From the NCBI GenBank assembly GCA_002167715.1, contig NHCG01000004.1:1-53449 (forward strand): 53,449 nt of DNA. Direction: 5' to 3'. The translations under genes were made by a program, and so were the position numbers. The notes under the pieces are model-generated. The model saw only the letters and a program-made list of their open reading frames with translations. It had not been told where the DNA came from and did not search any database. This document shows, piece after piece, positions 4,495-21,452 of this stretch (positions within the stretch are counted from its first letter, which is position 1; each line of letters starts with the position of its first letter). The stretch is from Micavibrio sp. TMED27 (GTDB taxonomy: Bacteria > Pseudomonadota > Alphaproteobacteria > Micavibrionales > Micavibrionaceae).

Positions 4495-4572
4495 CTACCA
4501 ACCGCTTTGATCTGACCTTGAGCGCAGTTGAGACGTGATATTGCAGCCGCTTTTTTATTGTCTTTAAGCATG
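4489..4572 (-). pseudogene. CsoR/RcnR-family repressor, N-terminal fragment
   Basis: An ATG overlaps the stop of the upstream membrane-protein gene (ATGCTTAA) and starts a frame reading MLKDNKKAAAISRLNCAQG followed by QIKAVGRYV. This is the conserved first helix of CsoR/RcnR-type (DUF156) metal-sensing repressors, where RL..(x)GQI/L.A(V) is nearly invariant. After 28 codons the sequence changes to IS3 orfA, so the metal ligands and the rest of the fold are lost. It was the last gene of the long minus-strand operon. Loss of a copper-type repressor here could leave target promoters constitutively active. The identification rests on about 28 residues. Confidence 0.6.
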
Positions 4573-5046
4573 ATCTTTATTCATCCTCCCTCGTGCCCAC
4601 CAGAATGATGCCAGCGGTATAACCAACCATTGCAAAAGTGGGGTCAGACCTATCTCAAAGCTTGCAAAAGGCAGTACGGGCATCTGATCGGCATAAGCCC
4701 AGCTTTCACGCCAATAAACATTCAACCATTCGCTATAAACCGTGTAAGCCAGGCCAAAGACTATCGCCCAAATCGCCACAGCCCTGTAGCCTTTGTGAGG
4801 CCAGCAATTATTACCAACAACAACCAGCGCCAACATTAGACTGGCCAGAGCAATGAGAATATCCCCGCCCGTACAATGCAGCACTGCAAAAAGGATTTGT
4901 TTCCATGTCCCCTCGTACCAGATTGTATAAAGCGGCATGTGCAGCGCCTCCCAGACCAGATTACCAAGCGCGATCACCAGAAAATAGCGCCGCATGAAAC
5001 TCAGCCAGGCGTAAAACTCATTTTTGTTTTCTATTATGCTTACCAT
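4564..5046 (-). CDS. Hypothetical integral membrane protein
   Basis: A 160-residue protein with four or five predicted membrane segments. The start at 5046 follows AGGTAGGGG and sits 5 bases after the preceding gene's stop; a longer frame to 5085 overlaps that gene without a better ribosome site. Conserved-looking polar residues lie within the membrane (WEALHMPLY, HCTGGDILIAL, YSEWLN, WAY..MP). I do not recognise a named family. It belongs to the end of the long operon and overlaps the start of the csoR fragment, so the two were translationally coupled. Nothing shows a substrate. Confidence 0.7.
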   Translation of the reverse strand: MVSIIENKNEFYAWLSFMRRYFLVIALGNLVWEALHMPLYTIWYEGTWKQILFAVLHCTGGDILIALASLMLALVVVGNNCWPHKGYRAVAIWAIVFGLAYTVYSEWLNVYWRESWAYADQMPVLPFASFEIGLTPLLQWLVIPLASFWWARGRMNKDHA

Positions 5047-5051
5047 CGCCC

Positions 5052-5738
5052 CTACCTGAAGATCTCCGGGCATTCCCGGCAGCATTTATTGTGAACGATG
5101 ATATAAATCAGATGCAGGGTCGCCACGCCCGCCAGCAGGCAGAAAAACGAGATATAGGCGTAGGACAGGAATATCCAGACCACCGCAATGACGGCAATCA
5201 GCGTCAGGCCGAATAGCCGCATGTGAAAATAGGTGGAAATCAGCGGCGGTGTGACGATCAGAAACACGTAAATCAGATAGGTCAGCTCACGCGGAATAAA
5301 ATAATCCAGAAACATCGTATCTTCATAGGCAATGGAATGGTTGTTGATGGCGACCTTGACCCAGTCGGGATTGGCCAGATGGGGAATGTATAAAGTCAGG
5401 CCCAGCGCCAGCCCCGACAGCGCAAACATCAAAAGCGTTCGCTTGCGCTTGCTGCCGGGCGGCTCCAGAAAATAAATCGCAAAAGGAATCCAGGTCGGCC
5501 ACATCAGCCATGAAAAAAAGATGAACCCCATCGCGCCCCACCAGACCATATCCGGGTCGGCATCGTTTAAGCCCATCCAGACATGGCCTTCCATCATTTG
5601 CTGAATACCCGCCAGCACCGGCATCAGCGCCACGGGGAAATAGCGCATATTGATCTTATAGGCTTTCCACGCTGCATAAGCTCCGCCTGCGAGCAGCATG
5701 CCTCCGGCCACAAAACTGACGGGTTCGGACATGCACAT
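5052..5738 (-). CDS. DUF6629-family integral membrane protein
   Basis: A 228-residue membrane protein with about seven hydrophobic helices. The N-terminus MCMSEPVSFVAGG has the Cys-x-Ser, Ser-Phe-x-Ala-Gly pattern of the DUF6629 family, whose function is unknown. GIQQMMEGHVWMGL in the second helix region (with an acidic and a His residue inside the membrane) also fits. A late CCRECPE motif at the C-terminus could bind a metal, but that is only a suggestion. The gene starts 3 bases after the PRPP synthetase stop and belongs to the same transcript. Confidence 0.7.
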   Translation of the reverse strand: MCMSEPVSFVAGGMLLAGGAYAAWKAYKINMRYFPVALMPVLAGIQQMMEGHVWMGLNDADPDMVWWGAMGFIFFSWLMWPTWIPFAIYFLEPPGSKRKRTLLMFALSGLALGLTLYIPHLANPDWVKVAINNHSIAYEDTMFLDYFIPRELTYLIYVFLIVTPPLISTYFHMRLFGLTLIAVIAVVWIFLSYAYISFFCLLAGVATLHLIYIIVHNKCCRECPEIFR

Positions 5739-5741
5739 GGG

Positions 5742-6626
5742 TTATCCTTCCCTTTCTTTCAGATGTTCGGCGAGCAAACGGCTGAGATCGATTTCATTGC
5801 TCGGATGCGGAATTGTATTGCAAGTCACAATCTTTCCTGCCCCTGCTTCTTGCAGGGCTTCATAGCCATCACCCGCAAAGACGGCATGAATGCCTATACA
5901 AGCAGGCGGCTTCATTCCGGCGTCCTTTAAATGTCCGGCGGCGGCAATCATGGTCCGGGCGGTGGAGATAATATCATCGACCAGCACGGGCGTATGATCC
6001 GCGTATTGATCAACATCCGGCACGGAAACCTCGACATCCTTATCACCATGGCGGGTTTTCGTCAGCACCGTATAAGCCGCTCCGGCGCGCTGCGCGACAT
6101 CCGATACCCATTGATCGCTTTCCTCATCCGGGCCGATCAGAACAGGCTTGTCTATATTGTCTTTAATCCAGTCCGCAATCGCGTCCGCCGCGTGAATAAC
6201 CTGCGCCGGGATGGTGTATATTTCCTTCATCTCTTTATGGCGATGCAAATGCGGATCGACGGTGATCAAACTGTCAAAATGCTGCGAAAGAAAGGCTGCA
6301 AAGATATTGGAGGTTATGGCTTCACCTTCATGGAAACGCTTATCCTGGCGCATATAACCCAGATAAGGCGTAATCAACCCGACCGATTTTGCGCCCAGCT
6401 CTTTGGCCGTCCTCGCAAAGAACATGATCGTCATCGCCTTGCTGTCGGGCTGATTGAGGGAACAAAACAAAATCACGTCCCGGTTTTTAACATCCGTTTC
6501 CAACTGTAGAAGGGTTTCACCATCGGGGAAATGATGGATGTCTATTGCCCCCAGCTCATATCCCGCTTCTTTGGCCAGCAATACGGCCTGTTCTTCGTTG
6601 TCCGGATAGCTAAATAAAAGACTCAT
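5742..6626 (-). CDS. prs: Ribose-phosphate pyrophosphokinase (PRPP synthetase) paralogue
   Basis: A 294-residue member of the PRPP synthetase family, which interconverts ribose 5-phosphate plus ATP with PRPP plus AMP. Visible motifs are the ATP region PYLGYMRQDKRF, the metal-binding DPHLHRH and the PRPP loop VLVDDIISTARTM. The loop differs from the usual DDIVDTGGT form, and the protein is shorter than the 310-320 residues of housekeeping Prs, so this is an accessory paralogue of the short class found in archaea and in bacterial AMP-phosphorylase clusters. Its ATG overlaps the stop of the phosphorylase gene (ATGA), with AAGGAG upstream, so the two are coupled. This pairing suggests a role in nucleotide breakdown rather than biosynthesis. 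Confidence 0.85.
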   Translation of the reverse strand: MSLLFSYPDNEEQAVLLAKEAGYELGAIDIHHFPDGETLLQLETDVKNRDVILFCSLNQPDSKAMTIMFFARTAKELGAKSVGLITPYLGYMRQDKRFHEGEAITSNIFAAFLSQHFDSLITVDPHLHRHKEMKEIYTIPAQVIHAADAIADWIKDNIDKPVLIGPDEESDQWVSDVAQRAGAAYTVLTKTRHGDKDVEVSVPDVDQYADHTPVLVDDIISTARTMIAAAGHLKDAGMKPPACIGIHAVFAGDGYEALQEAGAGKIVTCNTIPHPSNEIDLSRLLAEHLKEREG

Positions 6627-8143
6627 GATGGTTCTCCTTCTATGTCTATGATCCCGTCCTGCTCTTCGAGATAGCCAAGCGCATAATCAAGTTCGCCCGG
6701 CGAATGAGCATGGACGGTAAAAAGCGGCGCGCCTTTTTCAAGATGAGTGCCGACAGGCGTATGAAGATCAACACCCGCCACTTTATCGGCAGGCGCCCCG
6801 GCCAGTTTGGCCACGCGGGCAATGCGGCGGTTATCAATGGCTGTGACCTGTCCCGCTTTATCCGCTTCAATGACGTGGGTATATTTGGCACTTGGTATGT
6901 CCTTCATACCGCCCTGGGCATCACAGATTGCCTGGAACTTCGCCCAGGCTTTGCCGCTATTTAAAAGCTCTGCCGCCAATATCCGGCCTTGCCCGTTCTT
7001 CACATCCGACGAAAACTCCAGAATGTGTCCGGCCAGATCCAGCGCTCGTTCCCGCAAATCCTGCGGTGCATCCTTGGTGTTTTGCAAAACAGCCACCAGA
7101 TCACGCGCTTCCAGTGCCGGACCAATACCGCGCCCGACCGGCTGACTGCCGTCACTAGTATGAACACGCACGCCAATACCCATCGCCGCGCCTGTTTGCT
7201 CCAGATAGCGTGATAAATCCTCCGCCATCTCCATGCTGCGGATCTTGGCGGTCGGGCCAACTGGCATATCAATTAAAACATGTGAAGATCCGGCGGCAAT
7301 TTTCTTGGACAAAACAGAAGCCACAAGTTGCCCTTCGCTATCAAGATCCAGCGCCTTTTCCACGCGGATCAGCAGATCATCCGCCGGACTTAAAGAGACA
7401 GAGCCGCCCCAGACTACGCAGCCCTGTTCCTGCTCCACGACCTTGCGCATGACCGGCACATCCAGATCGACAGCGGTGAGCACTTCCATCGTATCCGCCG
7501 TGCCTGCAGGGGAGGTAATGGCGCGGGAAGAGGTTTTAGGCATGGTCAGGCCGTGCGCGGCGACAATCGCCACCACAATCGGGGTTGTCCGGTTGCCCGG
7601 CAAACCGCCAACGCAGTGCTTATCGACAACCAGATCTTGTCCCCAATCCAGCCTATCGCCGCTATCAACCATGGCACGGGTCAGGTGAACGATCTCTTGC
7701 TCATTGAGCCGCCCGCCCGCGCATGCTGTTAAAAAAGAAGACACATGGATATCCGAATAATATCCGGCGACAATATCATCGACAATCGACTGGAGCTGCT
7801 CGCCTTGCAATTCATTGCCGTAAATTTTGGATCGCATATGGCTGAGCGAATGCACAGGCGGCGCGTGCGAAACGTGAATATCAGCGCCGTCTTTTGCCCC
7901 CAGTTTCGCCCAGGCATATTCCGACAGAGCCGCTTCACCGGGCTTCAACAGGCCGTCCCGGATCATATTCAGCGTGGCGATCATAGATTGCCCGTTTAAA
8001 CTCACCAGCACACGGGTTTGAACCTCAAAGCCTTCAGCGCGGCAGACATGGCAATCTTCGCGCATGTAAATGACGGCTTCCTTATAGGTGTCGATGCCCA
8101 GGCGGCGCAGTTTCAATATGGGTTTTGGTCTATCCTGTTGCAT
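6623..8143 (-). CDS. AMP phosphorylase / thymidine phosphorylase-family protein
   Basis: A 506-residue phosphorylase of the DeoA superfamily, of the long form seen in archaeal AMP phosphorylases. The first about 85 residues form an extra N-terminal domain absent from ordinary thymidine phosphorylase. The catalytic part has DKHCVGGLPGNRTTPI (phosphate loop), KTSSRAITSPAGTADTMEVL and KKIAAGSSHVLIDMPVGPTAK. Archaeal relatives cleave nucleoside monophosphates with phosphate to give ribose 1,5-bisphosphate and base. Neighbouring genes encode a beta-CASP nuclease and a PRPP synthetase, which fits breakdown of RNA or nucleotides. The start overlaps the nuclease stop and has GAGGAG upstream. Substrate (AMP against thymidine) is inferred from length and context. 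Confidence 0.82.
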   Translation of the reverse strand: MQQDRPKPILKLRRLGIDTYKEAVIYMREDCHVCRAEGFEVQTRVLVSLNGQSMIATLNMIRDGLLKPGEAALSEYAWAKLGAKDGADIHVSHAPPVHSLSHMRSKIYGNELQGEQLQSIVDDIVAGYYSDIHVSSFLTACAGGRLNEQEIVHLTRAMVDSGDRLDWGQDLVVDKHCVGGLPGNRTTPIVVAIVAAHGLTMPKTSSRAITSPAGTADTMEVLTAVDLDVPVMRKVVEQEQGCVVWGGSVSLSPADDLLIRVEKALDLDSEGQLVASVLSKKIAAGSSHVLIDMPVGPTAKIRSMEMAEDLSRYLEQTGAAMGIGVRVHTSDGSQPVGRGIGPALEARDLVAVLQNTKDAPQDLRERALDLAGHILEFSSDVKNGQGRILAAELLNSGKAWAKFQAICDAQGGMKDIPSAKYTHVIEADKAGQVTAIDNRRIARVAKLAGAPADKVAGVDLHTPVGTHLEKGAPLFTVHAHSPGELDYALGYLEEQDGIIDIEGEPS

Positions 8144-9510
8144 TAAAGCTCCTCCGTTTGTGCATATTCGGGCACGTCCGCCTGCCAGCCGAATTTTTTC
8201 TCGATCCTGTCCTTCATACTTTGTGCAGCACTGGCTTCACCGTGGACAACAAATACTTTGCGCGGCGGGTTGTTAAAATTCTCCATCCAGTTCAAGATCT
8301 CGCCGTAATCAGCATGGGCTGACATATTGTCCAGCTTCTCGATCTGCGCTTTGACAGGAAACATCTGGCCGTGGATTTTAATCTCCTTCTCGCCCCGTGC
8401 CAGCCGGTCGCCGCGCGTGCCGCCTGCCTGAAATCCGGCCAAAAGAACCGTATTGCGTTCATCGCCGATATAATGTTTGAGATGGTGCAGAACCCGTCCG
8501 CCTGTCGCCATGCCGCTGGCTGAGATAATAATTTTCGGCATGTTGTTGTTCTTGTTATAAATCGCCTTGGATTTTTCGACCTTGCGGGTATAGGTGGCAA
8601 TGCCGCACACATCCATACATAAATCATGCGGCATACGGTGATCGTTTAAATGCTTGCACAATAAGTCCGAAGCGCTGATTGCCATAGGGCTGTCCAGAAA
8701 AACGGGAAGACTTGAGGGAATGCGCCCTTCGGTTTTGAGCTTGTGAATATAAAACATGATGGCTTGTGCCCGACCGACAGCAAAAGCCGGGATGACAACG
8801 GTGCCGCCGCGTGCCGCCGTTTCATTGACAATGCGCTCAATATCCTCGGTCGGATCGTCCTTGTCATGCAGCCGGTCGCCATAGGTCGATTCAACAACCA
8901 GATAATCGGCATCTTGAATCTTCGCAGGCGCCTTCATCACCGGATCGTTAAGTCGCCCGATATCGCCGGAAAATAATATAGATGTGCCGCCTGTATCGCT
9001 GATCCGGACAAAAGCCGCGCCCAGAATATGCCCGGCGCGGTGCAGGGTAAATTCAAGCTCCTCAGTCAGTTTGCAGGGCTGGCCGAAATCAACCGGTTTG
9101 AAATACTGAAATGTATCACGCGCTTCTTTCTCATTATAAAGCGGCAGAGCGGGTTTATGTTTTGTATAGTGATAACGGTTGGCGCGCTCCGCATCCTCTT
9201 CCTGAATATGGCCGCTATCGGGCAGCAGGATTTTACACAGATCAAACGTGGCTTCGGAACAATAGATCGGGCCTTTAAACCCCGCCTTGACCAGCTTGGG
9301 GATATAGCCGCTATGATCCAGATGGGCATGTGTCAGGAGCAAGGCATCAATATCGCGCGGATTGACCGGCAAGCCTTTCCAGTTGCGCAGGCGCAGCTCC
9401 TTATGCCCCTGAAACAACCCGCAATCAATCATGATCTTTTTGCCGCCGTCTTCGAGCAGATATTTCGATCCGGTCACCGTGCCGGTTGCGCCTAAAAATG
9501 TTAGTTTCAT
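8143..9510 (-). CDS. MBL-fold beta-CASP RNA-processing exonuclease family protein
   Basis: A 455-residue metallo-beta-lactamase-fold hydrolase with a beta-CASP insert, the CPSF73/YSH1-like class. Zinc ligands are visible in LLTHAHLDHSGYIPKL, in HRAGHILGAAF, in LFSGDIGR and in VVHGE near the C-terminus. The beta-CASP and late motifs include DSPMAISAS, ISASGMATGGR and NMSAHADYGE. These proteins cut RNA endo- or exonucleolytically. The gene lies directly between phosphoketolase and AMP phosphorylase with overlapping stop and start codons, which suggests that it feeds mononucleotides into the next step. That coupling is inference. Confidence 0.88.
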   Translation of the reverse strand: MKLTFLGATGTVTGSKYLLEDGGKKIMIDCGLFQGHKELRLRNWKGLPVNPRDIDALLLTHAHLDHSGYIPKLVKAGFKGPIYCSEATFDLCKILLPDSGHIQEEDAERANRYHYTKHKPALPLYNEKEARDTFQYFKPVDFGQPCKLTEELEFTLHRAGHILGAAFVRISDTGGTSILFSGDIGRLNDPVMKAPAKIQDADYLVVESTYGDRLHDKDDPTEDIERIVNETAARGGTVVIPAFAVGRAQAIMFYIHKLKTEGRIPSSLPVFLDSPMAISASDLLCKHLNDHRMPHDLCMDVCGIATYTRKVEKSKAIYNKNNNMPKIIISASGMATGGRVLHHLKHYIGDERNTVLLAGFQAGGTRGDRLARGEKEIKIHGQMFPVKAQIEKLDNMSAHADYGEILNWMENFNNPPRKVFVVHGEASAAQSMKDRIEKKFGWQADVPEYAQTEEL

Positions 9511-11961
9511 TTAACTCTCCTTATTATTTGTTTTTGTAATCACACCATCCGGTGAACGGGTTCCATTCAGAGCCTGACGTTCCTCATCGCTCAAAATATT
9601 CTCTTCATTGATGCCGAGCAGCGTTGCGGTTTCGCGCAGAATATGCGCCCAGCTGCAGCCATTGACGAAATGCATGCCTTCAACATCCAGCGTGCCGCCC
9701 TGATTGATAAAGCCTAGAGCTTTTACACTTTTTCCAGACCATAAAGGCTGCAACGTCCCCAGCATCACTTCCGGGCGGGTATGGCTCATCATCAATATAT
9801 GACGGCTTGCAGGCGGAACAATGACATCACGCACGGCCTCAGGCACGATATGTTCCGCTTCACCGTCATTACGCGGCGTGCGGAACCGCCCAGGCTCAAT
9901 CAAATAGGAAACGCTGTGGGCAATATCGCGCTCTTTCAAACGCGCAGAGGCTTTTAAAACTTCGACCAGCTGATAGGCACCAATCGCCACCAGGCCTATC
10001 TCGGCTTTATCCGCCTCATGCCCGGCCCAGCTGATCTGGATGCCGCCATCATTCAGCAGCTTTTGCGATTCCTCTTCAGAAAACAAAACCGGCATTGCGC
10101 GTTTCGGGATGACCAGCGTCCAGATTTGCCCTTGCGTTTGATACAGCCGGGCAAGCGTTTCAGCGGCGCTGTTATAATCAGCCGGAAATAAAACACGGGA
10201 AATATCGGATGTTTCCGAGAGCATACTTTCCGCTAAAGACGGGTCCTGGTGGGAAAGTTCGTTCTTGCCGTTCTCCCATGTGTTGGATGTCAATACCAAG
10301 GGCACGGACAGCCACCCGGCCGGTTTGCCGATATCTTTTTGGTGTTTGGAAAAAATCACCTCCTGGCGCGCACCGCCGAACATCTTGGCGCCGAACGCCT
10401 CATAGGTGACAATCATATTAATGCCGCCTTTATTGCCGAACGCCGCTCCGGCCACCGCTTCTTCATTGAGCGCTGTGATCACTTTGCCCAGCGTAGATTC
10501 CTCTAATCCTTCCTCCGCATCCACTACGCGAAACTCCAAAGCCTCCAGCGTATCATCCATACGGTTGGACAGCATTTCATCGGGGTTACCAACGCGCGGT
10601 CTGAGATGCGGATTGGCTTTAACAGTCTTTAAAAACCCTTCATCAATCGCATCCATGGGGCTGATCTCTTCCCAAATTTGCGGGTCGTTTGTTTGTGAAG
10701 TGATGGCCTTAAAATTCAGATCAGGAAGGGTTTTTAAGCGGACATCACGATTGCCGGCCGGATGTTCCCGCTCTTTCACGCGATCTGATTTCTCGTGATG
10801 TTGAAACAGGGAAACAGAGTCCTGCAACTCAGCAAAAGGCACATAAAGTTTTTTGGCGTGAGTATTAAAACGCTTGGCCGCCACCTCATTGATATGTGGG
10901 TTATCGACCAAGGGTAGATTATGTGCGTAATTTGTGCCTTCATTGTAAAACCCCGCGCCTTTGGGCGCAACGGCAATGCCATAGGGCACGGGCACATGGT
11001 AATGCTCAACGGAATTCAGATTAGCTGCATATTCGCGCAGGCGGCGTTCTTGTTGCCAGATCGCCCAAGCAAAAGCCGCCGGATCGCGCCCGTCGAAAAC
11101 AAGCGGCTCAAAGCCGTGCAGCTCAAGATGTTTGATAAACCATTCCACGCCGCCTTCCTGCGACATGGTGGTGCGCTGATCGATCCTGCGGCCATTGGCA
11201 ATCATGATCGGCACAACTTCGCCGCAATCCTCGGCGCGCCACCAGCGCGGTGTCCAGTCCGCGCCGCGTTGTTCTTCAAATGCGCCGTCACTTAAGAACG
11301 CCACCAGAGATTCACCGGGCAGCGGCATATGCGCATATTGAACCGAGGCAAAACCAAGATAGCCGCCTTCCAAATGCCCGCCGCCCGTATGCGGATTGAC
11401 ATGACTGCCCAGCGGCGAGTCCTGTCTTCCGTCTTCATTCAGGCTGTAGGAATAAAAATCGCGCGCAAAACGGGTTAAGCCGTCTTCACTTAAAGCATAA
11501 CGCGCCGCATGTTCCTCCGTCATATTGCCGAGCAATAAATTAACGCTATCGATGGCCGCCACGGCATGGCCTTGCCCCATCACCCAGCTGCGCGTTGTGC
11601 CCGTCAGCGCATTGGCTAGCATGTATCCGACATAGGCCGGGATCATATTGAGCGAACCGCCAAGATGGCCTTGCGGGTCTTTTTTGAAATCATCCGTCTT
11701 TAAATCGCGGCCATCAGTATAGATATGGGCAGCATAAGTCTGATTGACCGCAAGCCACATTGCCGCATTGGCAATCCGGTCTGCCGCCGCCAGCACATCA
11801 TAAAAAGCTACGCCGTCCCCGGCGGTGTTTTCAGCCGATAGCGTTGCCGCCATCTCAGCAATACGCTTGCGGGTTTCGGCAGAATGCGCAATAACCCCGT
11901 AGCCCTCAAACCACTCTTTTTCTGAAACCGTTTCCTGCGTGCTTGTTAATTGATCCTGCAT
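9511..11961 (-). CDS. xfp: Phosphoketolase (Xfp)
   Basis: An 816-residue thiamine-diphosphate enzyme that splits xylulose 5-phosphate (and often fructose 6-phosphate) with phosphate to give acetyl phosphate plus glyceraldehyde 3-phosphate (or erythrose 4-phosphate). Family length is about 790-830. Motifs include GHLGGSLNMIPAYVGYM, MGQGHAVAA, SHVNPHTGGGHLEGG, FLSDGAFEEQRG for the cofactor, and WSGKSVKALGFINQGGTLDV in the C-terminal domain. AAGGAG precedes the ATG. With acetate kinase, the MaoC-phosphotransacetylase fusion and PHA synthase in the same run, its acetyl phosphate can become ATP plus acetate, or acetyl-CoA for polymer. Confidence 0.95.
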   Translation of the reverse strand: MQDQLTSTQETVSEKEWFEGYGVIAHSAETRKRIAEMAATLSAENTAGDGVAFYDVLAAADRIANAAMWLAVNQTYAAHIYTDGRDLKTDDFKKDPQGHLGGSLNMIPAYVGYMLANALTGTTRSWVMGQGHAVAAIDSVNLLLGNMTEEHAARYALSEDGLTRFARDFYSYSLNEDGRQDSPLGSHVNPHTGGGHLEGGYLGFASVQYAHMPLPGESLVAFLSDGAFEEQRGADWTPRWWRAEDCGEVVPIMIANGRRIDQRTTMSQEGGVEWFIKHLELHGFEPLVFDGRDPAAFAWAIWQQERRLREYAANLNSVEHYHVPVPYGIAVAPKGAGFYNEGTNYAHNLPLVDNPHINEVAAKRFNTHAKKLYVPFAELQDSVSLFQHHEKSDRVKEREHPAGNRDVRLKTLPDLNFKAITSQTNDPQIWEEISPMDAIDEGFLKTVKANPHLRPRVGNPDEMLSNRMDDTLEALEFRVVDAEEGLEESTLGKVITALNEEAVAGAAFGNKGGINMIVTYEAFGAKMFGGARQEVIFSKHQKDIGKPAGWLSVPLVLTSNTWENGKNELSHQDPSLAESMLSETSDISRVLFPADYNSAAETLARLYQTQGQIWTLVIPKRAMPVLFSEEESQKLLNDGGIQISWAGHEADKAEIGLVAIGAYQLVEVLKASARLKERDIAHSVSYLIEPGRFRTPRNDGEAEHIVPEAVRDVIVPPASRHILMMSHTRPEVMLGTLQPLWSGKSVKALGFINQGGTLDVEGMHFVNGCSWAHILRETATLLGINEENILSDEERQALNGTRSPDGVITKTNNKES

Positions 11962-11965
11962 GTTT

Positions 11966-13174
11966 TTAACTCCTTACTTTTACGGGATTATATTCGGACT
12001 TTGGCAGGCTCAAATGCAGCCAGATATATCCGGCAACGGCAGAGATCAGCGAGGCAATCAAGATCGCCAGTCTGCCGATTTCCGGATTGCCGTTATGGGG
12101 AAAAGCCAGCGTGTTTAAAAACAGCGCCATGGTAAAACCGATCCCGCCCAGAAGCGCTACACCAAAGATCTGCCGCCAGTTGATATGGTCAGCCAGACGC
12201 GCCAAGCCGGACAGATGCGCCAGAAATGCAAAGGTAAAAATACCCAGCGGCTTGCCCAAAACCAGCCCGGCGATGATGCCCAGCGAAAGCGATGATCCCA
12301 GATGATGCGGGGAAATATCGGTGAGGACGATCCCGGCATTAAAAAAGGCAAAAAGCGGCACAATGAAAAACGCCACCCACGGATGCAACCCATCCTCGAC
12401 AAAGCGCAGCGGGATATAGGCGCATGATTTTTTAAGCCGCAGCGGCAGAGCCAATCCGACTGCCACACCGGCCATGGTCGGGTGAATACCGGATTCCTGA
12501 AAGGTCGCCCATAACACGATGCCCATGACGATATAGAGCGAGGCATGGGTGACACCGAAACGGTTGAGCACAAATAAGGCGGCAATGCCGAGCAATGAGA
12601 AGAGAAGAACGCTCACGGTCAGATGGCTGCCATAAAATAATGCGATGATCAGAATGCCGCCCAGATCATCAAATATGGCCAGCGCCGCCAGAAACAGCTT
12701 CAGCTCAACCGGCACACGCTTACCCAGTAAAGAAAGTACGCCGAGGCTGAGCGCAATATCGGTAGCGGTCGGAATCGCCCAGCCCTGCATGAGTGTGGGG
12801 TTATCACGATTGAAAAACAGGTAAAACGCCGCCGGAACCGCCATCCCACCCAGCGCCGCAAAGGCAGGCAACAGCATTTGCCTTGTTCCGGATAGATGGC
12901 CGTCCAGAATCTCGCGCTTGATTTCAAGGGTCACAGCCAAAAAGAAAAACGCCATCAACCCTTCATTAATCCAGAACACCAGCGGCTTTTGCAGGATAAA
13001 GTCCCCGAAACTGATCACGACAGGCGTGTGGTGAAAAATATCGTAAGCGAGTTTCAGCGGCGAATTCACGCACAGCAACGCAATGCCGAGCGCGCCGATC
13101 ATCATGAGCGCGGCCCACTGATCGGCGCTGGCGGTTTTACCCGCTATAGCAAAATGGCGTTTACGCTTTTGCAT
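11966..13174 (-). CDS. nhaA: Na+/H+ antiporter NhaA
   Basis: A 402-residue inner-membrane antiporter with about twelve helices. Family motifs are clear: NEGLMAFFFLAVTLEIKRE, ATDIALSLGVLSLLGKRVP, the two adjacent transport aspartates in AIFDDLGGI, and GGIGFTMALFLNTLAF near the C-terminus. NhaA exchanges external protons for internal Na+ and supports pH and salt homeostasis. I place the start at 13174, a canonical ATG; the preceding TTG also fits. It sits between a small membrane protein and phosphoketolase with short gaps and no separate promoter visible. Its presence suggests that the operon addresses acid or cation stress. Confidence 0.94.
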   Translation of the reverse strand: MQKRKRHFAIAGKTASADQWAALMMIGALGIALLCVNSPLKLAYDIFHHTPVVISFGDFILQKPLVFWINEGLMAFFFLAVTLEIKREILDGHLSGTRQMLLPAFAALGGMAVPAAFYLFFNRDNPTLMQGWAIPTATDIALSLGVLSLLGKRVPVELKLFLAALAIFDDLGGILIIALFYGSHLTVSVLLFSLLGIAALFVLNRFGVTHASLYIVMGIVLWATFQESGIHPTMAGVAVGLALPLRLKKSCAYIPLRFVEDGLHPWVAFFIVPLFAFFNAGIVLTDISPHHLGSSLSLGIIAGLVLGKPLGIFTFAFLAHLSGLARLADHINWRQIFGVALLGGIGFTMALFLNTLAFPHNGNPEIGRLAILIASLISAVAGYIWLHLSLPKSEYNPVKVRS

Positions 13175-13184
13175 CAACCCTCAC

Positions 13185-13460: not shown

Positions 13461-13481
13461 GGTTTTTTCCTTTCTTGTGCC

Positions 13482-13939: not shown

Positions 13940-15775
13940 TTATTTCATCAAAACATAGTCGCCCGGTGCATCACGCAAAGGCTTGTAACCCTTTTTGGCC
14001 GCGCCCATAGACGGCGGCTTAACTTTATCGCCGGAGTGTCCCGCCAGCCATTTTTGCCATTCCAGCCACCATGAGCCGTCATGGGAGGGCGTTTCCGCGC
14101 ACCACTCATCGGGCGGCGTAAACTTGTCCGCATTCTTTTGTGTAGCAATCTGGTAGGTGCGGCGTGGATGTCCCGGTTCGCTGACGATCCCCGCATTATG
14201 CCCGCCGCTGGCTAGAGCAAAGGTGACATCGGTATCGGCAAACAGGTGTATTTTATAGACCGAGCGCCACGGCGCGACATGATCGCGCTGCGTGGAAACA
14301 GCAAAAACCGGCACACGAATATCGGTAAGCGCAACCGGCTTGCCCTCAATTGCAAACCGGCCTTCGGCCAGATCGTTATTCAGGAACAGGCTGCGCAAAT
14401 ATTCGCTATGCATCTTATAAGGCATGCGCGTGACATCGGCATTCCAGGCCATCAAATCATTCGGCGGCCTGCGTTCCCCCAGCATATAATTCTCCACAGC
14501 CCGCGACCAGATGAGATCACGGGAGCGCAGCATCTGGAAGGTTCCGGCCATATGCTTGCCGCTCAGATAGCCTTTTTCCCACATGGTGTCTTCCAGCCAT
14601 GCGAGCTGACTCTCATCAGTGAACATCGAAAGCTCGCCCGCTTCTTCAAAATCAACCTGCGTGGTAAACAGGGTCAGGGATTTTAGGGAATCCCCATCAT
14701 CTCGCGCCAATGCCGCCGCCGCAATCGCGGCCAGCGTCCCACCCAGGCAATAGCCCGCCAGATGCACTTTCTGATCCGGAACGATTGTCTTGATGGCCTT
14801 AAGCGCCTCCATAATGCCCAACTCAAGATAATCCTCAAACCCGAGATCGCGCTCTTCAGCGCCGGGATTATTCCATGAAATCATGAACACTGTATGGCCC
14901 TGATCGACCAGATATTTGACCAGAGAATTTTCCGGGGAGAGATCGAGAATGTAATATTTCATGATCCAAGCCGGAGTGATCAGCACAGGCTCGGCATAGA
15001 CCTCTTTTGTGGCCGGTGCATACTGGATCAACTCAATGAGGCGGTTTTGATAAACCACCTTGCCCTTGGTCACAGCTATATTTTCACCGACCTTATAGTC
15101 TTCCATCCCGGCAGCTTGCTGGCCGGTTATCTGCTGCATCCAATCATCCATGAAATTCTGAGCGCCCCTGAAAAAATTAAACCCGCCTTGTTCGGTGGTG
15201 GCTTTGACAACATGCGGATTGGTCAGCGGGAAATTGAGCGGTGAGAACATATCCAGCATTTGCCGCGCCATAAAGGGCAGCACGGCTTCATGATGCCGAG
15301 TTACGCCGCGCACATCTGTGGCTTCCTGCCACCATTGCTCGGTCAGCAAATACGCCTGTTTATAGAGGCTGTAAGGCCATTCATCCCAATCTTCTCCTTT
15401 AAAGCGGTGATCCTGCGGCAATGGCTCGGCACAACATTCCGCATGATCATGTCCTGAAATCTGACAACGGATAAAAGACGCAAAAAGCGCGGCTCTGTCT
15501 GCTGCGCTGCGCGCCAGCTCCGCCTGCCGCCCGGGAGACAGCGCCAGATGAGTCAGCCAATCGGCATAAGCCAGACCCAGCGAAGTCGGAGACAGACCGG
15601 AAATCTTGCTCATCCCGGCATGCAGCATGCGGTCAGCCAGCGGCACATCTTCGGCCACAGGCATTGGCGGCAGTTTCATATGCGGGCCGCAAAATGTATG
15701 CTCCGCTGCGGCGTCCTTGTTTTCAGCAGGGAAGCTGGAAATATTACTTTGTTTTTGTTTTGCGGTTTTTGTCAT
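13940..15775 (-). CDS. phaC: Class I poly(3-hydroxyalkanoate) synthase PhaC
   Basis: A 611-residue polymerase that joins hydroxyacyl-CoA units into polyhydroxyalkanoate granules. The N-terminal PhaC domain includes NFPLTNPHVVKATTEQGG. The alpha/beta-hydrolase core has the modified lipase box GYCLGG with nucleophile Cys343, Asp498 in QRDHVAPW, and His526 in GGHNAG. The length fits class I, with no PhaE partner in the window. The conserved end region SWWLEWQKWL is present. No phaA or phaB lies nearby, so 3-hydroxybutyryl-CoA must come from elsewhere or through the MaoC-type hydratase encoded in the same operon. The ribosome site is weak, and translation may depend on the upstream gene. Confidence 0.94.
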   Translation of the reverse strand: MTKTAKQKQSNISSFPAENKDAAAEHTFCGPHMKLPPMPVAEDVPLADRMLHAGMSKISGLSPTSLGLAYADWLTHLALSPGRQAELARSAADRAALFASFIRCQISGHDHAECCAEPLPQDHRFKGEDWDEWPYSLYKQAYLLTEQWWQEATDVRGVTRHHEAVLPFMARQMLDMFSPLNFPLTNPHVVKATTEQGGFNFFRGAQNFMDDWMQQITGQQAAGMEDYKVGENIAVTKGKVVYQNRLIELIQYAPATKEVYAEPVLITPAWIMKYYILDLSPENSLVKYLVDQGHTVFMISWNNPGAEERDLGFEDYLELGIMEALKAIKTIVPDQKVHLAGYCLGGTLAAIAAAALARDDGDSLKSLTLFTTQVDFEEAGELSMFTDESQLAWLEDTMWEKGYLSGKHMAGTFQMLRSRDLIWSRAVENYMLGERRPPNDLMAWNADVTRMPYKMHSEYLRSLFLNNDLAEGRFAIEGKPVALTDIRVPVFAVSTQRDHVAPWRSVYKIHLFADTDVTFALASGGHNAGIVSEPGHPRRTYQIATQKNADKFTPPDEWCAETPSHDGSWWLEWQKWLAGHSGDKVKPPSMGAAKKGYKPLRDAPGDYVLMK

Positions 15776-16297: not shown

Positions 16298-18073
16298 CTA
16301 TCCGTAAATGGCCTTGAACACAGCGTTCTGCCATTTTTTGTGGTAATCCGACATGGTTTCGATGGTGGCTTCAATGCGCTCAGCCGTCTGCCGCTCCATC
16401 TCTTTAAACGGGTTATCTTCTGCCGCCGCTTTGCGGTTATCTCTGACAGTCTGGGCGGCAAGAGGCAGGGGCAGCATGGCCGGATTGAGCTGCTCTGAAA
16501 ATATCTTGCGGCTGGCACGCATCGGGTGCGCTGTTTTCAAAACTTCAGCCGTTAACGGATTGGCGAAAGCCTCTACAAAAGGCCGCGCAAACTGTTTGTA
16601 ACGCTCATCATTCTTTTCCGATACGCTGCGTACCGCCTCAAAAGAGTCTTGCGGCACGCTCTCACAGATATCCTCGACAAGGCGCTCTTCAAAACGCACC
16701 TCATATTGATCGCGGCTGCAATCGGGATCGCCTGTCGGATTATCGATGATCATCTCGTAAAGCCCCGGTTTAAGACTTTCAATATCCGCCGTGTTTTCAA
16801 GAATGGCACGGTGCTCCAGCTTAGCGACCTTGGCCGAAACGAAAATCCCCAGATGGCCGACATGCGGATTAATCAGATAGACAATGCGCTGTCCGGCCTT
16901 TTTGAGCGCTTTGGTGTCGGGGTAAACGGCGCGTATCCAGTGCAATGCCTGACGCGGCGGCGTAATCTCATCGCCTTCCGATGCAAAGATAAGCAGCGGG
17001 TTTTTAATGTCTTTAAGGTCAACGGCGCAATGCTCGTCCAGCACCATCTCGCCGCGCTCGATCTTGTTGCCGATAAACAAATTTTCGACCGTGGCTGTAA
17101 TTTCCTCTTCACTGAGGGAATAAAACCCGTTCCACCAACGCTCGAAGGATAGAAACCGCTCGCTTTCTTTATCAACATTGGCGAACAGATTGTAATATTT
17201 ATCCCAGATCGCTTTGGCAGGATTAAGCTGTTCGAAATTATGCACGAGCCACGCCCCGTCAAAAATGCCATTGCTCATATCGCTCATCATCCGGGTGAGC
17301 CAGACACCACCTGACAAGCCGCCCCGCACCTGCATCGGGTTCATCTCTTCACCGCCAGCCCAATAGGATAAAGGCGAGCCGTTCATCACAGCGGGACCGA
17401 CCAGCCCGGAACAATCCGCCGACAGCAAAGCCAGCATCCATCCGGCCTGACAATTGCCGTACAGAACGGGCGGCTTGTTATCGTGCCAGGCGGAAACCTC
17501 TTCGACAAATTTGCGCAAAGCCGCCAACACATCGCCCATTGTCTGATCCGGCTCCGGGTCGGGATAGAAAATAACGAAATAAACCGGATGACCTTCATGC
17601 AGAGCTATGCCTACTTCAGAATCCCTTTTAAATCCACCAATACCGGGGCCGTGCCCGGCGCGTGGATCGACAATCATCACGGGCGGTTTGTCGGGATCAA
17701 GGCAGTCTTCAAGACAATCCTCGCCTGCCTCGGTTATTTTCAAAAGCGCGTAATTGGCAGGACGCTCAAATTTTCTGGCATCCAGAACCATTTCATACTT
17801 GAAATCCAGCAGCGGCGGCATTCCGGCCTTTTCATGCTCCAGCATATTGTCAGCCCGCTGGCGCAGCGTATCGAAAAACAACACAGAGCGCTGAAAAGCA
17901 TCAATCTGATACTCCATCAAATCACTCCAGACACCGAACGGGGAAGCCGCCTGATCATCCGTCTTGTCTTCTTCCTTGGCTTTAAAAAGAGAAGCCGGTG
18001 CGTTATCCTGTTTGATCTCTGGTTTTTTGATCTTCACCTTGGTTTTTTCCTTCTTCTTAACGGCCTGTGCCAT
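16298..18073 (-). CDS. DUF3141-domain alpha/beta-hydrolase-like protein
   Basis: A 591-residue cytoplasmic protein. After a Lys-rich, low-complexity N-terminus of about 40 residues comes a domain related to PHA synthases and alpha/beta hydrolases: MIVDPRAGHGPGIGGF, then YGNCQAGWMLALLSA at the nucleophile elbow, with Cys in G-N-C-Q-A-G. The catalytic Asp candidate is in FASEGDEITPP, and HVGHLGIF supplies a His. This matches the DUF3141 family, often encoded beside phosphotransacetylase and acetate kinase genes in proteobacteria. The activity is not established. Its start overlaps the acetate kinase stop by 17 bases. Confidence 0.85.
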   Translation of the reverse strand: MAQAVKKKEKTKVKIKKPEIKQDNAPASLFKAKEEDKTDDQAASPFGVWSDLMEYQIDAFQRSVLFFDTLRQRADNMLEHEKAGMPPLLDFKYEMVLDARKFERPANYALLKITEAGEDCLEDCLDPDKPPVMIVDPRAGHGPGIGGFKRDSEVGIALHEGHPVYFVIFYPDPEPDQTMGDVLAALRKFVEEVSAWHDNKPPVLYGNCQAGWMLALLSADCSGLVGPAVMNGSPLSYWAGGEEMNPMQVRGGLSGGVWLTRMMSDMSNGIFDGAWLVHNFEQLNPAKAIWDKYYNLFANVDKESERFLSFERWWNGFYSLSEEEITATVENLFIGNKIERGEMVLDEHCAVDLKDIKNPLLIFASEGDEITPPRQALHWIRAVYPDTKALKKAGQRIVYLINPHVGHLGIFVSAKVAKLEHRAILENTADIESLKPGLYEMIIDNPTGDPDCSRDQYEVRFEERLVEDICESVPQDSFEAVRSVSEKNDERYKQFARPFVEAFANPLTAEVLKTAHPMRASRKIFSEQLNPAMLPLPLAAQTVRDNRKAAAEDNPFKEMERQTAERIEATIETMSDYHKKWQNAVFKAIYG

Positions 18074-19214
18074 GACGCATCTCCTTGTCTATATTGGTTA
18101 CAGCTTTGCTACGCAGAATATTTTCAGCCTCTCTGGCGATCATCCATTGCTCACGGGTTTGCGTGACAATGACTTTGACTTTCGCATTATCTTTTTGAAT
18201 TTGCGGCGCTTCAAAACCGTCAAGCTTAACAGCTGCATTTTTCTTTTCATCAAAGTCCAGCCCCATAAAATCCAGACCCTCACAAATGCGTTTGCGCATG
18301 GCGGCGGAATGCTCGCCAATGCCACCTGTAAAGGCCAAGACATCAGCGCCATCCATCACGGCGGCATAGGCACCGATATATTTACGGACGCGGTAGGCAT
18401 AGATATCAAGCGCCAACTGCGCTTTTTTATCGCCATCCGCTGCTTTATCCTCAATCACGCGCATATCATTGCTTCCGGCCAGCGCTTTCAGGCCGCTCTC
18501 GCTATAAAGGCTTTTTTCGATCTGATCCGCTGTTAAGCCTTGCGTGCGGTAAAGAAAAGCAAACAGGCCGGGATCGACATCGCCGGAGCGCGTGCCCATT
18601 ACCAGGCCTTCCAGCGCCGTCATGCCCATCGAGGTATCGACCGATATCCCCTTATCAATCGCGCAAATCGATGCACCATTGCCCAGATGGCAGCTAATGA
18701 TGCGCAAATCTTCCGGACTTTTGCTTAGCTCTTCCGCTACGCGCTGCATCACATATTTATGCGATGTGCCGTGAAACCCGTAACGCCGCAAGCCCAGATC
18801 ACGCCACTCCTGCGGCACGGCGTATGTGATCGCTTTTTGCGGCATGGTCTGGTGAAAGGCCGTATCAAACACGGCCACTTGCGGTAAATCCGGCCAGGTT
18901 TTCTGCACAATGCGGATACCAGTCAGATTGGGCGGGTTATGCAGCGGCGCCAGCGGCACGCAGCTTTCAATGGCGCTGATCACCTTGCTGTCAATAATAC
19001 AGGCCTCTCGGAAAACCTCACCGCCATGGGCAATACGGTGGCCTATGGCATCAAAATTCTTATAACCGTTTTCTTTCAGAATACCGGGAATTTTTTCCAG
19101 CGCCGGTTCAATATGCTCAAGTCCGTCCAGCGAGTGTTTAAAGACATGCGCGCCACCCTCAAAAACACCAAACTTGACCGAGGAGCTGCCTGCATTGATA
19201 ACCAGAATGCGCAT
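18057..19214 (-). CDS. ackA: Acetate kinase
   Basis: A 385-residue acetate/propionate kinase, interconverting acetyl phosphate plus ADP with acetate plus ATP. Signature sequences are VINAGSSSVKFGVF at the N-terminus, AHGGE, FDTAFH, RRYGFHGTSH, ISCHLGNGASICAI, MGMTALEGLVMGTRSGDVDP and TGGIGEHSA. The length agrees with the family (about 390-400). It lies 1 base downstream of the MaoC-phosphotransacetylase gene. Together with phosphoketolase it completes a short route that yields ATP from sugar phosphates without oxygen. Confidence 0.95.
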   Translation of the reverse strand: MRILVINAGSSSVKFGVFEGGAHVFKHSLDGLEHIEPALEKIPGILKENGYKNFDAIGHRIAHGGEVFREACIIDSKVISAIESCVPLAPLHNPPNLTGIRIVQKTWPDLPQVAVFDTAFHQTMPQKAITYAVPQEWRDLGLRRYGFHGTSHKYVMQRVAEELSKSPEDLRIISCHLGNGASICAIDKGISVDTSMGMTALEGLVMGTRSGDVDPGLFAFLYRTQGLTADQIEKSLYSESGLKALAGSNDMRVIEDKAADGDKKAQLALDIYAYRVRKYIGAYAAVMDGADVLAFTGGIGEHSAAMRKRICEGLDFMGLDFDEKKNAAVKLDGFEAPQIQKDNAKVKVIVTQTREQWMIAREAENILRSKAVTNIDKEMRHGTGR

Positions 19215-19215
19215 A

Positions 19216-20667
19216 TCACCATCCTCCTTCTACCACGTTCGGCGCAGTATCATGATGGCATTCGGTTCCTTGTTTTTGACCTTTACTATCCCGCACCGTT
19301 AAAAGTGCCAGCGCACAGGAGGCTTTACGGGCAATGGCACTGCTGGCGCGGCTGGTCAGGATGATCGGCACCTGCGCCCCCATGACGATCCCAGCCATAT
19401 GCGCACCGGACAGCAAGACAAGTTGCTTGAATAAAATATTGCCGGATTCCAGATCGGGCACGACCAGAATATCAGCCTTGCCTGCTACCTGGGAGCGGAT
19501 GCCCTTGATATCGGCGGCCTCTTCGGAAATCGCATTATCAAAGGCCAGCGGGCCATCCAGCAATGCCCCGGTAATCTGTCCGCGTTCGGCCATCTTGCAC
19601 AGGGCCGTGGCATCGAGCGTGGAGGGAATATCCTGATTAACCGTTTCCACCGCCGAGAGCAAAGCCACGCGCGGCACCGTCTTGTTTACTGCTAAAAACA
19701 GATCAATGGCGTTTTGAACAATATCGACTTTCTGTGTTAGATTGGGCTGAATATTGATCGCCGCATCCGTCACATATAGAGGCCGGGGGAATTTCGGGAT
19801 ATCGAGCATGGCGACATGGCTCATCCGCCGCCCTGTACGCAGTCCTTTTTGTTTATCCATCACCGCCAGCATCAGCTCATCAGTATGGAGCTTGCCTTTC
19901 ATCAGGGCTTCCACCTTACCCTCATGCACCATTTGCACGGCCATCTCCGCCGCCGCATGGCTGTGCGGTGTGGGAATGATGGTATAGGGCGAAAGGTCTA
20001 TATTTTCCTCTTCCGCCACCGCTCTAATTTTATCCTCCGGCCCGACCAACACAGCTTCGATAATACCGTCTTCCGTGGCTTCAACAGCGCCCCTTAAGGA
20101 CACGGCATCAGCCGGATGAACCACAGCAGTTTTTAAAGGCTCCAGCCCGTGCACCATGCAAATCGCCTGATGATGGTGTGGACATTCTTCATCCTTGAAC
20201 TCGATTTCCGGCAATCTGATCCGTTTGCGCTTAACTTTTTCGGTAGGCGCTATGACTTCCGCTTCGCCCGTAATCACTTCCTTACCATCCTGATTGAGGC
20301 AGACGCAATCCAGTATCAGACGTTTTTTCTTCTCATCCTTGCTTTTGACCGTGACCCGCGCCGTTACCGTATCGCCGATGCCCACAGGCTTTAAAAACCG
20401 GAAGGTCTGACCCAGATAGATCGTGCCCGGACCCGGCAGTTGCGTGCCCAGCACGGTTGAAATCAGCGAGCCGCCCCACATGCCGTGGGCGATGATTTCA
20501 TGAAACATATCGCTTCTTGCATATTCTTCATCCAGATGCGCCGGATTAACATCGCCGGACATGACGGCAAAAAGCTGGATATCCTTTTGCGTCAGCATAT
20601 GTTCGACCGAAGCGGTATCGCCGATATCGATCTCATCAAAAATTTTGTTTTGGATTATGCCGTTCAT
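19216..20667 (-). CDS. Bifunctional enoyl-CoA hydratase (MaoC) / phosphate acetyltransferase
   Basis: A 483-residue fusion. Residues about 1-150 form a MaoC hotdog dehydratase domain, with catalytic Asp and His in SGDVNPAHLDEEYA and AHGMWGGSLIS. Residues about 170-470 form a PTA/PTB domain (LKTAVVHPADAVSLRGA, LMKGKLHTDELM, DAAINIQPNLTQK, GPLAFDNAIS, LVVPDLESGNILFKQL). Known proteins of this architecture are annotated as bifunctional enoyl-CoA hydratase/phosphate acetyltransferase. In this operon it could turn acetyl phosphate into acetyl-CoA and hydrate crotonyl-CoA to 3-hydroxybutyryl-CoA for PhaC. AAGGAATGAG precedes the ATG. The actual substrates are inferred from context. Confidence 0.9.
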   Translation of the reverse strand: MNGIIQNKIFDEIDIGDTASVEHMLTQKDIQLFAVMSGDVNPAHLDEEYARSDMFHEIIAHGMWGGSLISTVLGTQLPGPGTIYLGQTFRFLKPVGIGDTVTARVTVKSKDEKKKRLILDCVCLNQDGKEVITGEAEVIAPTEKVKRKRIRLPEIEFKDEECPHHHQAICMVHGLEPLKTAVVHPADAVSLRGAVEATEDGIIEAVLVGPEDKIRAVAEEENIDLSPYTIIPTPHSHAAAEMAVQMVHEGKVEALMKGKLHTDELMLAVMDKQKGLRTGRRMSHVAMLDIPKFPRPLYVTDAAINIQPNLTQKVDIVQNAIDLFLAVNKTVPRVALLSAVETVNQDIPSTLDATALCKMAERGQITGALLDGPLAFDNAISEEAADIKGIRSQVAGKADILVVPDLESGNILFKQLVLLSGAHMAGIVMGAQVPIILTSRASSAIARKASCALALLTVRDSKGQKQGTECHHDTAPNVVEGGW

Positions 20668-20678: not shown

Positions 20679-21452
20679 TTACGCCGCCATAATGTTAAAG
20701 CCCGCATCGATATAAACCGTGCTGCCGGTCACCAGCCGCGCTTCATCACTCACCAGAAATCTTGCGTACGCGCCCACACAATCCGTGCAGATCAATTCAT
20801 GCGCAGGCGACTGTTCGCGCGCTTCTTCCAGCAATTTATCAAAATGGGCAATCCCGCCCGCCGCGCGCGTGGCCACTGGTCCAGGTGATAAGGCATTGAC
20901 GCGGATTTTCTTTTCGCCCAGCTCGGCGGCCATATATTTCACCATGCCTTCCAGCGCCGCCTTCACCGGACCCATCACGCCGTAATGCTCAACGACTTTC
21001 TCGCCACCGTAATAGGTGGTGGTCAGCAGGCAGCCGCCGTCAACCATCAGCGGTTCGGCCAGATGCGCCAGCCGCGCAAAGGAATGACAGGAAATATCCA
21101 TTGCCGTGAGAAAACCCTCTTTCGAGCAATCCGTCACCCTTCCATGCAGATCCTCCTTTGGCGCAAAAGCAATGGCGTGCAGCAAGAAATCCAGCTTCCC
21201 CCATTGATTGCCGATCATCTCGAACAGCCCCTGCATTTCCGTCTCGTTGGTCACATCCAGCGGCACAATAATCGGAGCATTAACCTGCTCGGCCAGCGGG
21301 CGCACATAAGGCGCCGCCTTTTCATTGAGGTACGTAATCGCCAGCTCCGCTCCGGCACCATGGAAGGCTTTTGCACAGCCCCAGGCAATTGAATGTTCAT
21401 TGGCAATGCCAACGATCAAGCCTTTCTTTCCTTTAAGCACATCCGTTGTCAT
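20679..21452 (-). CDS. fabI: Enoyl-[acyl-carrier-protein] reductase (NADH), FabI type
   Basis: A 257-residue short-chain dehydrogenase of the FabI type. GIANEHSIAWG is the characteristic nucleotide-binding loop. The catalytic pair is Tyr157 and Lys164 in YGVMGPVKAALE, with Tyr147 ten residues before, matching the FabI Y-x9-Y-x6-K spacing. SPGPVATRAAGGI and GSTVYIDAGFNIMA also fit. It reduces enoyl-ACP in fatty-acid synthesis. Because it lies in an accessory operon with MaoC-Pta, AckA and PhaC, it is probably a second copy that may act on short enoyl thioesters; this is inference. Confidence 0.92.
   Translation of the reverse strand: MTTDVLKGKKGLIVGIANEHSIAWGCAKAFHGAGAELAITYLNEKAAPYVRPLAEQVNAPIIVPLDVTNETEMQGLFEMIGNQWGKLDFLLHAIAFAPKEDLHGRVTDCSKEGFLTAMDISCHSFARLAHLAEPLMVDGGCLLTTTYYGGEKVVEHYGVMGPVKAALEGMVKYMAAELGEKKIRVNALSPGPVATRAAGGIAHFDKLLEEAREQSPAHELICTDCVGAYARFLVSDEARLVTGSTVYIDAGFNIMAA

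Follow-up and report, generated by a model that had tools for sequence, protein, structure and literature searches.

Introduction

To our knowledge, what becomes of ribose 1,5-bisphosphate in RuBisCO-lacking bacteria is largely unexplained, and four genes at positions 5742-11961 of contig NHCG01000004.1 of Micavibrio sp. TMED27 (assembly GCA_002167715.1) raise the question of whether a dedicated gene set handles this compound. The window analyzed here is the complete contig (C22; 53,449 bp), and the host genome is 2.5 Mb at 96.4% completeness. An earlier note on this DNA had proposed that a phosphoketolase, a beta-CASP nuclease, an AMP phosphorylase of archaeal length and a short Prs (phosphoribosyl pyrophosphate, or PRPP, synthase) form one module leading from RNA and nucleotides to acetyl phosphate. 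Across related loci the phosphorylase, the Prs-like protein and the nuclease, which has a metallo-beta-lactamase (MBL) fold, form the conserved core of a module that is real and recurrent, and the phosphoketolase is a recurrent but optional partner outside that core. Our preferred reading of the core is a ribose-salvage module centered on ribose 1,5-bisphosphate.

Results

The four open reading frames lie on the minus strand exactly where the earlier note had placed them, with intergenic gaps of 0, -1 and -4 bp, and their family matches are far above chance. They encode a divergent phosphoketolase (P0004; 9511..11961, 816 aa), a beta-CASP MBL-fold RNase (8143..9510, 455 aa), a long candidate nucleoside-monophosphate (NMP) phosphorylase with an N-terminal domain (P0002; 6623..8143, 506 aa; over the cut-offs of NF003338 and TIGR02645), and a dedicated Prs-like enzyme (P0001; 5742..6626, 294 aa) of subfamily NF005537 (419 bits, cut-off 322). 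The MBL protein is over the cut-offs of PF00753, PF10996 (Beta-Casp) and PF07521 (RMMBL), and its closest solved structure is the RNase TTHA0252.

Conservation was followed in 98 loci annotated with purpose-built profiles: 8 from the window's order, 27 from genome contigs, 47 from a tool-drawn class sample of 337 genomes, and 16 from plasmids. Before counting, seven loci of the genome-contig set that duplicated order loci were removed; among the 98 that remained, a phosphorylase identity of 97% or more was reached by a single pair, L037 and L041, each a copy of the window's island. There is bias in the genome-contig set, its members having been found via N-terminal peptide patterns, and the 16 plasmids were hand-picked from the best-listed 60 phosphorylase matches. 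A Prs gene is found no more than 300 bp from the phosphorylase in 60/98 loci (order 6/8, genome contigs 23/27, class sample 18/47, plasmids 13/16), and an MBL gene in 56/98 (7/8, 17/27, 21/47 and 11/16, respectively). Among the 337 class genomes, 25 encode an NF005537 Prs and 48 the phosphorylase (E <=1e-100); 24 of the 25 hold both (Fisher p ~2e-22, not corrected for kinship), and the Prs of the lone genome that has no phosphorylase falls short of the family cut-off. In 19 of these 24 genomes the two genes are neighbors, and in the other five they are on different contigs; half of the phosphorylase-bearing genomes (24/48) have no NF005537 Prs. On two plasmids, from L. anisa (L111) and Novosphingobium (L181), the phosphorylase-Prs pair stands upstream of F1F0-ATPase genes ("alternate F1F0" in L111).

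P0002 scores 699 bits against NF003338 (cut-off 434). The extra N-terminal domain is present, the match to the curated AMP-phosphorylase model TIGR03327 beginning at residue 10 (of 506) and at position 2 of the model, and the best match in the PDB is the long enzyme 4ga5 (344 bits; the best short pyrimidine-nucleoside phosphorylase reaches 145). Thirty-two alignment columns conserved in at least 90% of 63 module phosphorylases have the same residues in three AMP phosphorylases of archaea (for one, residues 51-494 only), and occur in at most 5% of 23 short enzymes, E. coli DeoA included. Tyr168 and Arg171 of DeoA, which we take to be thymine contacts, are replaced by Ile and Glu (Ile259 and Glu262 in P0002) in module and archaeal enzymes alike. 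The earlier note's assignment to the archaeal AMP-phosphorylase type is borne out by the 32 discriminating active-site columns, though the TIGR03327 cut-off is missed. Judged by its residues, the active site of P0002 is of the NMP-phosphorylase type and not of the thymidine type, and 'thymidine phosphorylase family protein', the name used in public annotation, probably misleads. No match to the phosphopentomutase DeoB was found in the whole genome; together with the active-site residues, this leads us to reject thymidine phosphorylase as the identity of P0002.

The Prs-like enzyme departs from its housekeeping relatives beside the catalytic Asp. In 64 of 65 rows of module Prs (locus L115 being counted twice among them), the Gly-Gly that follows Mg-ligand Asp170, presumably the diphosphate-binding loop, is replaced by Glu169-Ser170, and the remaining row has a gap there. 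Eighteen positions conserved in at least 93% of the rows are unlike both E. coli Prs and the canonical Prs that the same genome encodes on contig C12. Several of these look archaeal by eye (e.g. FPD and the Ser of DDIIS); Glu169-Ser170 does not, M. jannaschii Prs having Gly-Ala there. P0001 keeps positions F35, D37, H131, D170, D220, D221, T225 and T228 of E. coli Prs, which contact ribose 5-phosphate, Mg or nucleotide according to the available text of PMC9232217, and the T225 position is Thr in 38 and Ser in 26 of the 65 rows. P0001 belongs to a subfamily tied to the phosphorylase and altered next to the catalytic Asp, and the ordinary short Prs of the earlier note has to be given up. Housekeeping PRPP can probably be made without P0001, given the canonical Prs encoded elsewhere in the genome.

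PhnN is the ribose 1,5-bisphosphokinase that forms PRPP. Fusions of PhnN to a relative of the phosphorylase occur on a Variovorax SRS16 plasmid (L178:9242-11395) and in the alphaproteobacterial genome G206 (L151:9251-11437), both directly downstream of nadC; they are tree neighbors on a branch apart from the window's phosphorylase and may represent one event. A further genome, G305, has a PhnN gene and the phosphorylase gene as head-to-head neighbors. These fusions and the head-to-head pair tie the phosphorylase family to ribose 1,5-bisphosphate, which is also the expected product of an NMP phosphorylase (PMC9700705, available text). Neither G206 nor G305 is among the 25 genomes with an NF005537 Prs, and this alternation suggests that the Prs-like enzyme fills the place of PhnN. 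The Prs-like enzyme is the prime candidate for the ribose-1,5-bisphosphate step. At another locus, L160, a nicotinate-phosphoribosyltransferase-like gene (below family cut-offs) lies upstream of a phosphorylase that has no Prs beside it. Neighbors were listed at ten loci with a phosphorylase but no Prs; family scans covered NadC of L151 and the nicotinate-phosphoribosyltransferase-like protein of L160, together with the L151 fusion and the PhnN gene of L132. The earlier note had proposed that Prs runs in reverse and had named the link between phosphorylase and Prs as the open step; as stated, the proposal is not supported, since the reverse reaction needs PRPP rather than ribose 1,5-bisphosphate and the genome has no PhnN over cut-off to supply PRPP.

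P0004 scores 128 bits against PF03894 (XFP; cut-off 22) and is also over the cut-off of PF09364, and reaches at most 147 bits against NCBIfam phosphoketolase models with cut-offs of at least 777. It is 46-53% identical to plasmid relatives, annotated 'xylulose 5-phosphate 3-epimerase', and 21-23% identical to three canonical plasmid phosphoketolases. Its motifs GHxGG, GQGH, GSH...EGGxLG, AHN, DE..SN, NEE, YEAF and KNExSHQDP correspond to GHWG, GPGH, GSH...EGGELG, SHQ, DETASN, SEH, YEAF and HNGFSHQDP, respectively, in the canonical enzymes. The available text of PMC10547157 lists an active-site set of His, Glu, Tyr and Asn residues that includes Gln321, Gln546 and His548; P0004 has Asn, Asn and Lys at these three positions, as numbered by motif, and most other listed positions are kept, as judged by motif.

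By tblastn, the divergent phosphoketolase is found on 15 plasmid records, 14 of which also hold the phosphorylase. In 12 of the 15 the two genes are within 1.5 kb, across seven genera (Paracoccus, Sulfitobacter, Agrobacterium, Ciceribacter, Rhizobium, Novosphingobium and Pseudorhizobium), several of these 12 plasmids looking closely related; the distance is 9 kb on an Acidovorax plasmid and 58 kb on a Phenylobacterium plasmid. The exception is an Alteromonas plasmid with no phosphorylase anywhere in the record, on which the phosphoketolase gene is overlapped at its start by a kinase gene of the acetate/propionate family (242 bits, short of the 293 required for ackA), an overlap that points to acetyl phosphate as the product. 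Plasmids of Criblamydia, L. fallonii and Shinella have canonical phosphoketolases next to the module, with the genes arranged differently, and a phosphoketolase of either type lies within 10 kb of the phosphorylase on 6/16 plasmids, again in differing orders. Thus, of the neighborhood that the earlier note expected to be conserved, the phosphorylase-Prs-MBL part recurs across loci, and the phosphoketolase part holds only for plasmids and the window's own island. On the plasmid of the chlamydial Criblamydia (L114), genes for a phosphoketolase, glgP, an ATP-cone protein, MBL, phosphorylase, Prs and acetate kinase form a single run.

Published expression data are available for annotated counterparts in Bradyrhizobium diazoefficiens. 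In Table 2 of PMC9104804, bll3115, bll3117, bll2517 and bll2518 are lowered under microoxia in both the C183D-fixK2 and the delta-fixK2 strains; the available text of that paper predicts the operons bll3117-bll3116-bll3115 (phosphorylase, Prs, MBL) and bll2518-bll2517 (phosphoketolase, AckA-family kinase), with FixK2-type motifs upstream of bll3117 and bll2518. By their locus numbers the two units are not neighbors. Table 2 of PMC6515984 gives positive microoxic-versus-oxic values in protein and transcript for bll3115, bll3116, bll3117 and bll2518, and the available text and headings put these rows among 71 genes raised at both levels. The comparison with B. diazoefficiens USDA110 rests on the published annotation of its proteins; the corresponding trio on a B. 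septentrionale plasmid includes an NF005537 Prs (370 bits).

The module lies on a mobile island. At the DNA level, window positions 1-17,420 match part of G097, which belongs to another genus, at 99.0% identity, and positions 6809-20700 (13.9 kb) match G060, of the same genus, at 97.2%; compared with the canonical Prs on the chromosomes of G097 and G060, that of the window's genome is 67% and 82% identical, respectively. The island was transferred recently, given 99% DNA identity to a genus whose chromosomal Prs is only 67% identical. An IS3-type integrase/transposase lies at 3386-4168, and copper/heavy-metal genes flank the operon on both sides, at 474-3162 and 21464-41858 (CopB, multicopper oxidase, P-type ATPase, CDF transporter, CusA, CusB and CusF/plastocyanin-like proteins, with MerR-like regulators recognized by eye). 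Of 72,556 plasmid records, 115 carry a relative of the phosphorylase, and 45 of the 115 are predicted to be conjugative. The phosphorylase is over its curated cut-off in 8/142 genomes of the window's order, its own included.

The four genes belong to a minus-strand run of 19 kb. The first gene of the run, preceded by a 191-bp gap, encodes a heavy-metal (copper-type) P-type ATPase (21464..23725; over the cut-offs of TIGR01525 and TIGR01511), followed after 11 bp by enoyl-acyl carrier protein reductase FabI (20679..21452; NF005717, 420 bits, cut-off 337), a MaoC-phosphate acetyl/butyryltransferase fusion (MaoC-Pta; 19216..20667; NF006045, 718 bits, cut-off 282) and acetate kinase AckA, a possible acetyl phosphate sink (18057..19214; TIGR00016, 431 bits, cut-off 293). 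Next come a DUF3141 protein, an alpha/beta hydrolase resembling polyhydroxyalkanoate (PHA) synthases (16298..18073; PF11339, 667 bits), an EF-hand protein weakly similar to lanmodulin, beside the PHA-synthase-like genes (15792-16334), a PHA-synthase-like protein of the class I type (13940..15775; TIGR01838, 542 bits, below the cut-off of 623), two small proteins and the Na+/H+ antiporter NhaA (11966..13177; TIGR00773, 405 bits, cut-off 254). Gaps from the four genes up to the P-type ATPase are at most 21 bp. The phosphoketolase therefore shares its run with the two usual consumers of acetyl phosphate, AckA and MaoC-Pta. The earlier note named neither of these, nor FabI, the PHA-synthase-like gene, NhaA, the copper-resistance genes around the operon or the second Prs of the genome. 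NhaA is within 10 kb of the phosphorylase in 7/8 order loci. Downstream on the same strand, two small proteins (4564..5738) comprise a DUF6629 protein (PF20334 on 5052-5738), also found downstream of the module at L039 and L166, and one with no family match.

Elsewhere in the window, positions 44557-46263 encode a sulfur transferase domain of the TIGR01244 type joined to a protein whose best resemblance, though below cut-off, is to a type III sulfide:quinone reductase of the selenoprotein subtype, and positions 52538-53293, near the contig end, encode the C-terminal part of a CusA/CzcA pump, either cut by the assembly or truncated.

Discussion

On balance we consider it probable, if only just, that the window carries a mobile stress/energy operon that salvages ribose from nucleotides toward acetyl phosphate. 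The beta-CASP RNase would supply 5'-nucleotides, and the long phosphorylase, by its active site, would convert NMP and phosphate to free base and ribose 1,5-bisphosphate. The Prs-like enzyme would act at the ribose-1,5-bisphosphate/PRPP node to give a pentose 5-phosphate, PRPP or ATP, and the pentose phosphate, after isomerization, would enter the divergent phosphoketolase, so that carbon would flow toward acetyl phosphate. AckA would use acetyl phosphate to make ATP, and acetyl-CoA and storage polymer could be formed from it through MaoC-Pta, FabI and the PHA-synthase-like proteins. Phosphoketolase and AckA recur as an addition carried by plasmids and by the window's island; by attaching the core to phosphoketolase, this island and several plasmids may let ATP and acetyl-CoA be drawn from nucleotides when respiration fails.

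Several observations weigh against this account. No phosphoketolase lies within 10 kb of the phosphorylase in the class-sample (0/47) or genome-contig (0/27) loci, where a flank of 9 kb on both sides is available for only 27/47 and 16/27, and the two order loci that have one (2/8) are both the window's own island. The class sample thus excludes the phosphoketolase as a constant member, and the four-gene module of the earlier note contracts to a recurrent trio with an optional fourth gene. In the same sample, Prs and MBL are themselves within 300 bp of the phosphorylase in a minority of loci. P0002 scores 488 bits against TIGR03327 (cut-off 535), a model that a haloarchaeal enzyme matches at 611 bits, and by this curated score test is not a member of the AMP-phosphorylase equivalog. 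Arg99 of E. coli Prs, a contact of the beta-phosphate in the available text of PMC9232217, is Lys in P0001 (Lys in 35 and Arg in 14 of the rows, together 49/65, the others differing). RNA as the input is a step that we infer from the MBL family alone. Table 2 of PMC6515984 marks bll3115, bll3116, bll3117 and bll2518 '-' for direct FixK2 targets, and FNR/FixK-type boxes are not enriched in the window (11 sites, 7.8 expected). Finally, the whole genome has no ribose-1,5-bisphosphate isomerase, no RuBisCO and no PhnN over cut-off, with the possibility of an overlooked gene that its completeness leaves. The earlier note's report that the first two are missing thus extends to the entire genome, and we reject the archaeal isomerase/RuBisCO route for this genome. 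Two weak PhnN matches elsewhere in the genome (36 and 33 bits, cut-off 156) are probably guanylate-kinase-like.

The choice between a flow to acetyl phosphate and a recycling of PRPP depends on the reaction of the Prs-like enzyme. In a PRPP-forming salvage of nucleotides or cofactors, the phosphorylase and its partner (Prs-like here, PhnN elsewhere) would recycle ribose phosphate for nucleotide or NAD synthesis, and the phosphoketolase would be separate and merely co-regulated. The position of both PhnN fusions directly after nadC, which encodes a PRPP-using enzyme, the nicotinate-phosphoribosyltransferase-like gene at L160 and the lack of a phosphoketolase near any class-sample locus all speak for such a salvage, but the fusions sit on a different branch of the phosphorylase tree as mutual neighbors and may be one event, the genome already has a canonical Prs, and two types of phosphoketolase have joined the core in several gene orders, which is hard to ascribe to chance. 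We regard PRPP recycling as unlikely, though it deserves serious consideration. It is likewise doubtful that the NF005537 'Prs' is not a PRPP synthase at all and converts ribose 1,5-bisphosphate directly, which would make it the enzyme that a pentose bisphosphate route in bacteria still lacks; the C1 phosphate might be passed to ADP or AMP with release of ribose 5-phosphate, or PRPP might be made, as PhnN does.

That phosphorylase-Prs-MBL and phosphoketolase-AckA are unrelated stress functions gathered as passengers on copper-resistance islands and plasmids seems improbable. The recent transfer of the island, the copper-type P-type ATPase within 10 kb of 10/16 plasmid phosphorylases and the many other stress genes near module loci would fit such a gathering; set against them are the close linkage of phosphorylase and divergent phosphoketolase on 12/15 plasmids from seven genera, tempered by the kinship of several of these plasmids, and the dependence of both Bradyrhizobium units on fixK2 although they are not neighbors (PMC9104804, available text). 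Ordinary thymidine or pyrimidine-nucleoside salvage, which the NCBIfam name of NF003338 and the public annotations of relatives imply, has very little to recommend it, given the archaeal-type Ile and Glu in place of DeoA Tyr168 and Arg171, the absence of DeoB from the genome, and the far better match to 4ga5 than to any short enzyme.

The salvage toward acetyl phosphate that we favor resembles several known systems. It shares the phosphorylase superfamily, the N-terminal domain and active-site residues with the archaeal pentose bisphosphate pathway, or NMP shunt, in which T. kodakarensis combines NMP phosphorylase, ribose-1,5-bisphosphate isomerase and RuBisCO (PMC9700705, available text), but neither of the latter two is found here, and the partner is Prs-like and, on some mobile elements, a phosphoketolase. 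The PhnN route from ribose 1,5-bisphosphate to PRPP is alike in that PhnN is fused to or beside phosphorylase relatives, whereas the window's genome has a Prs-like gene in the partner's place. As in the phosphoketolase-acetate kinase shunt (bll2518-bll2517 of B. diazoefficiens), a phosphoketolase is accompanied by AckA, with Pta in the same run here, although the window's enzyme is distant in sequence from the canonical plasmid phosphoketolases. A further parallel is bll3117-bll3116-bll3115, annotated as phosphorylase, Prs and MBL (PMC6515984 and PMC9104804, available text), but in Bradyrhizobium the phosphoketolase and kinase form a separate unit (PMC9104804). No published account of the module's function turned up in a literature search, and the available parts of PMC6515984 and PMC9104804 assign none to the Bradyrhizobium trio.

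The name thymidine phosphorylase is currently attached to bacterial relatives of AMP phosphorylase. The gene set described here is widespread and often carried by plasmids, is regulated by low oxygen in Bradyrhizobium, and offers a concrete route and a candidate enzyme for the missing step. If the NF005537 enzyme does convert ribose 1,5-bisphosphate directly, it would complete an ATP-yielding pathway from NMP to acetyl phosphate that needs neither ribose-1,5-bisphosphate isomerase nor RuBisCO. In stressed cells, the gene set may connect the turnover of nucleotides or RNA with ATP, acetate and storage polymer.

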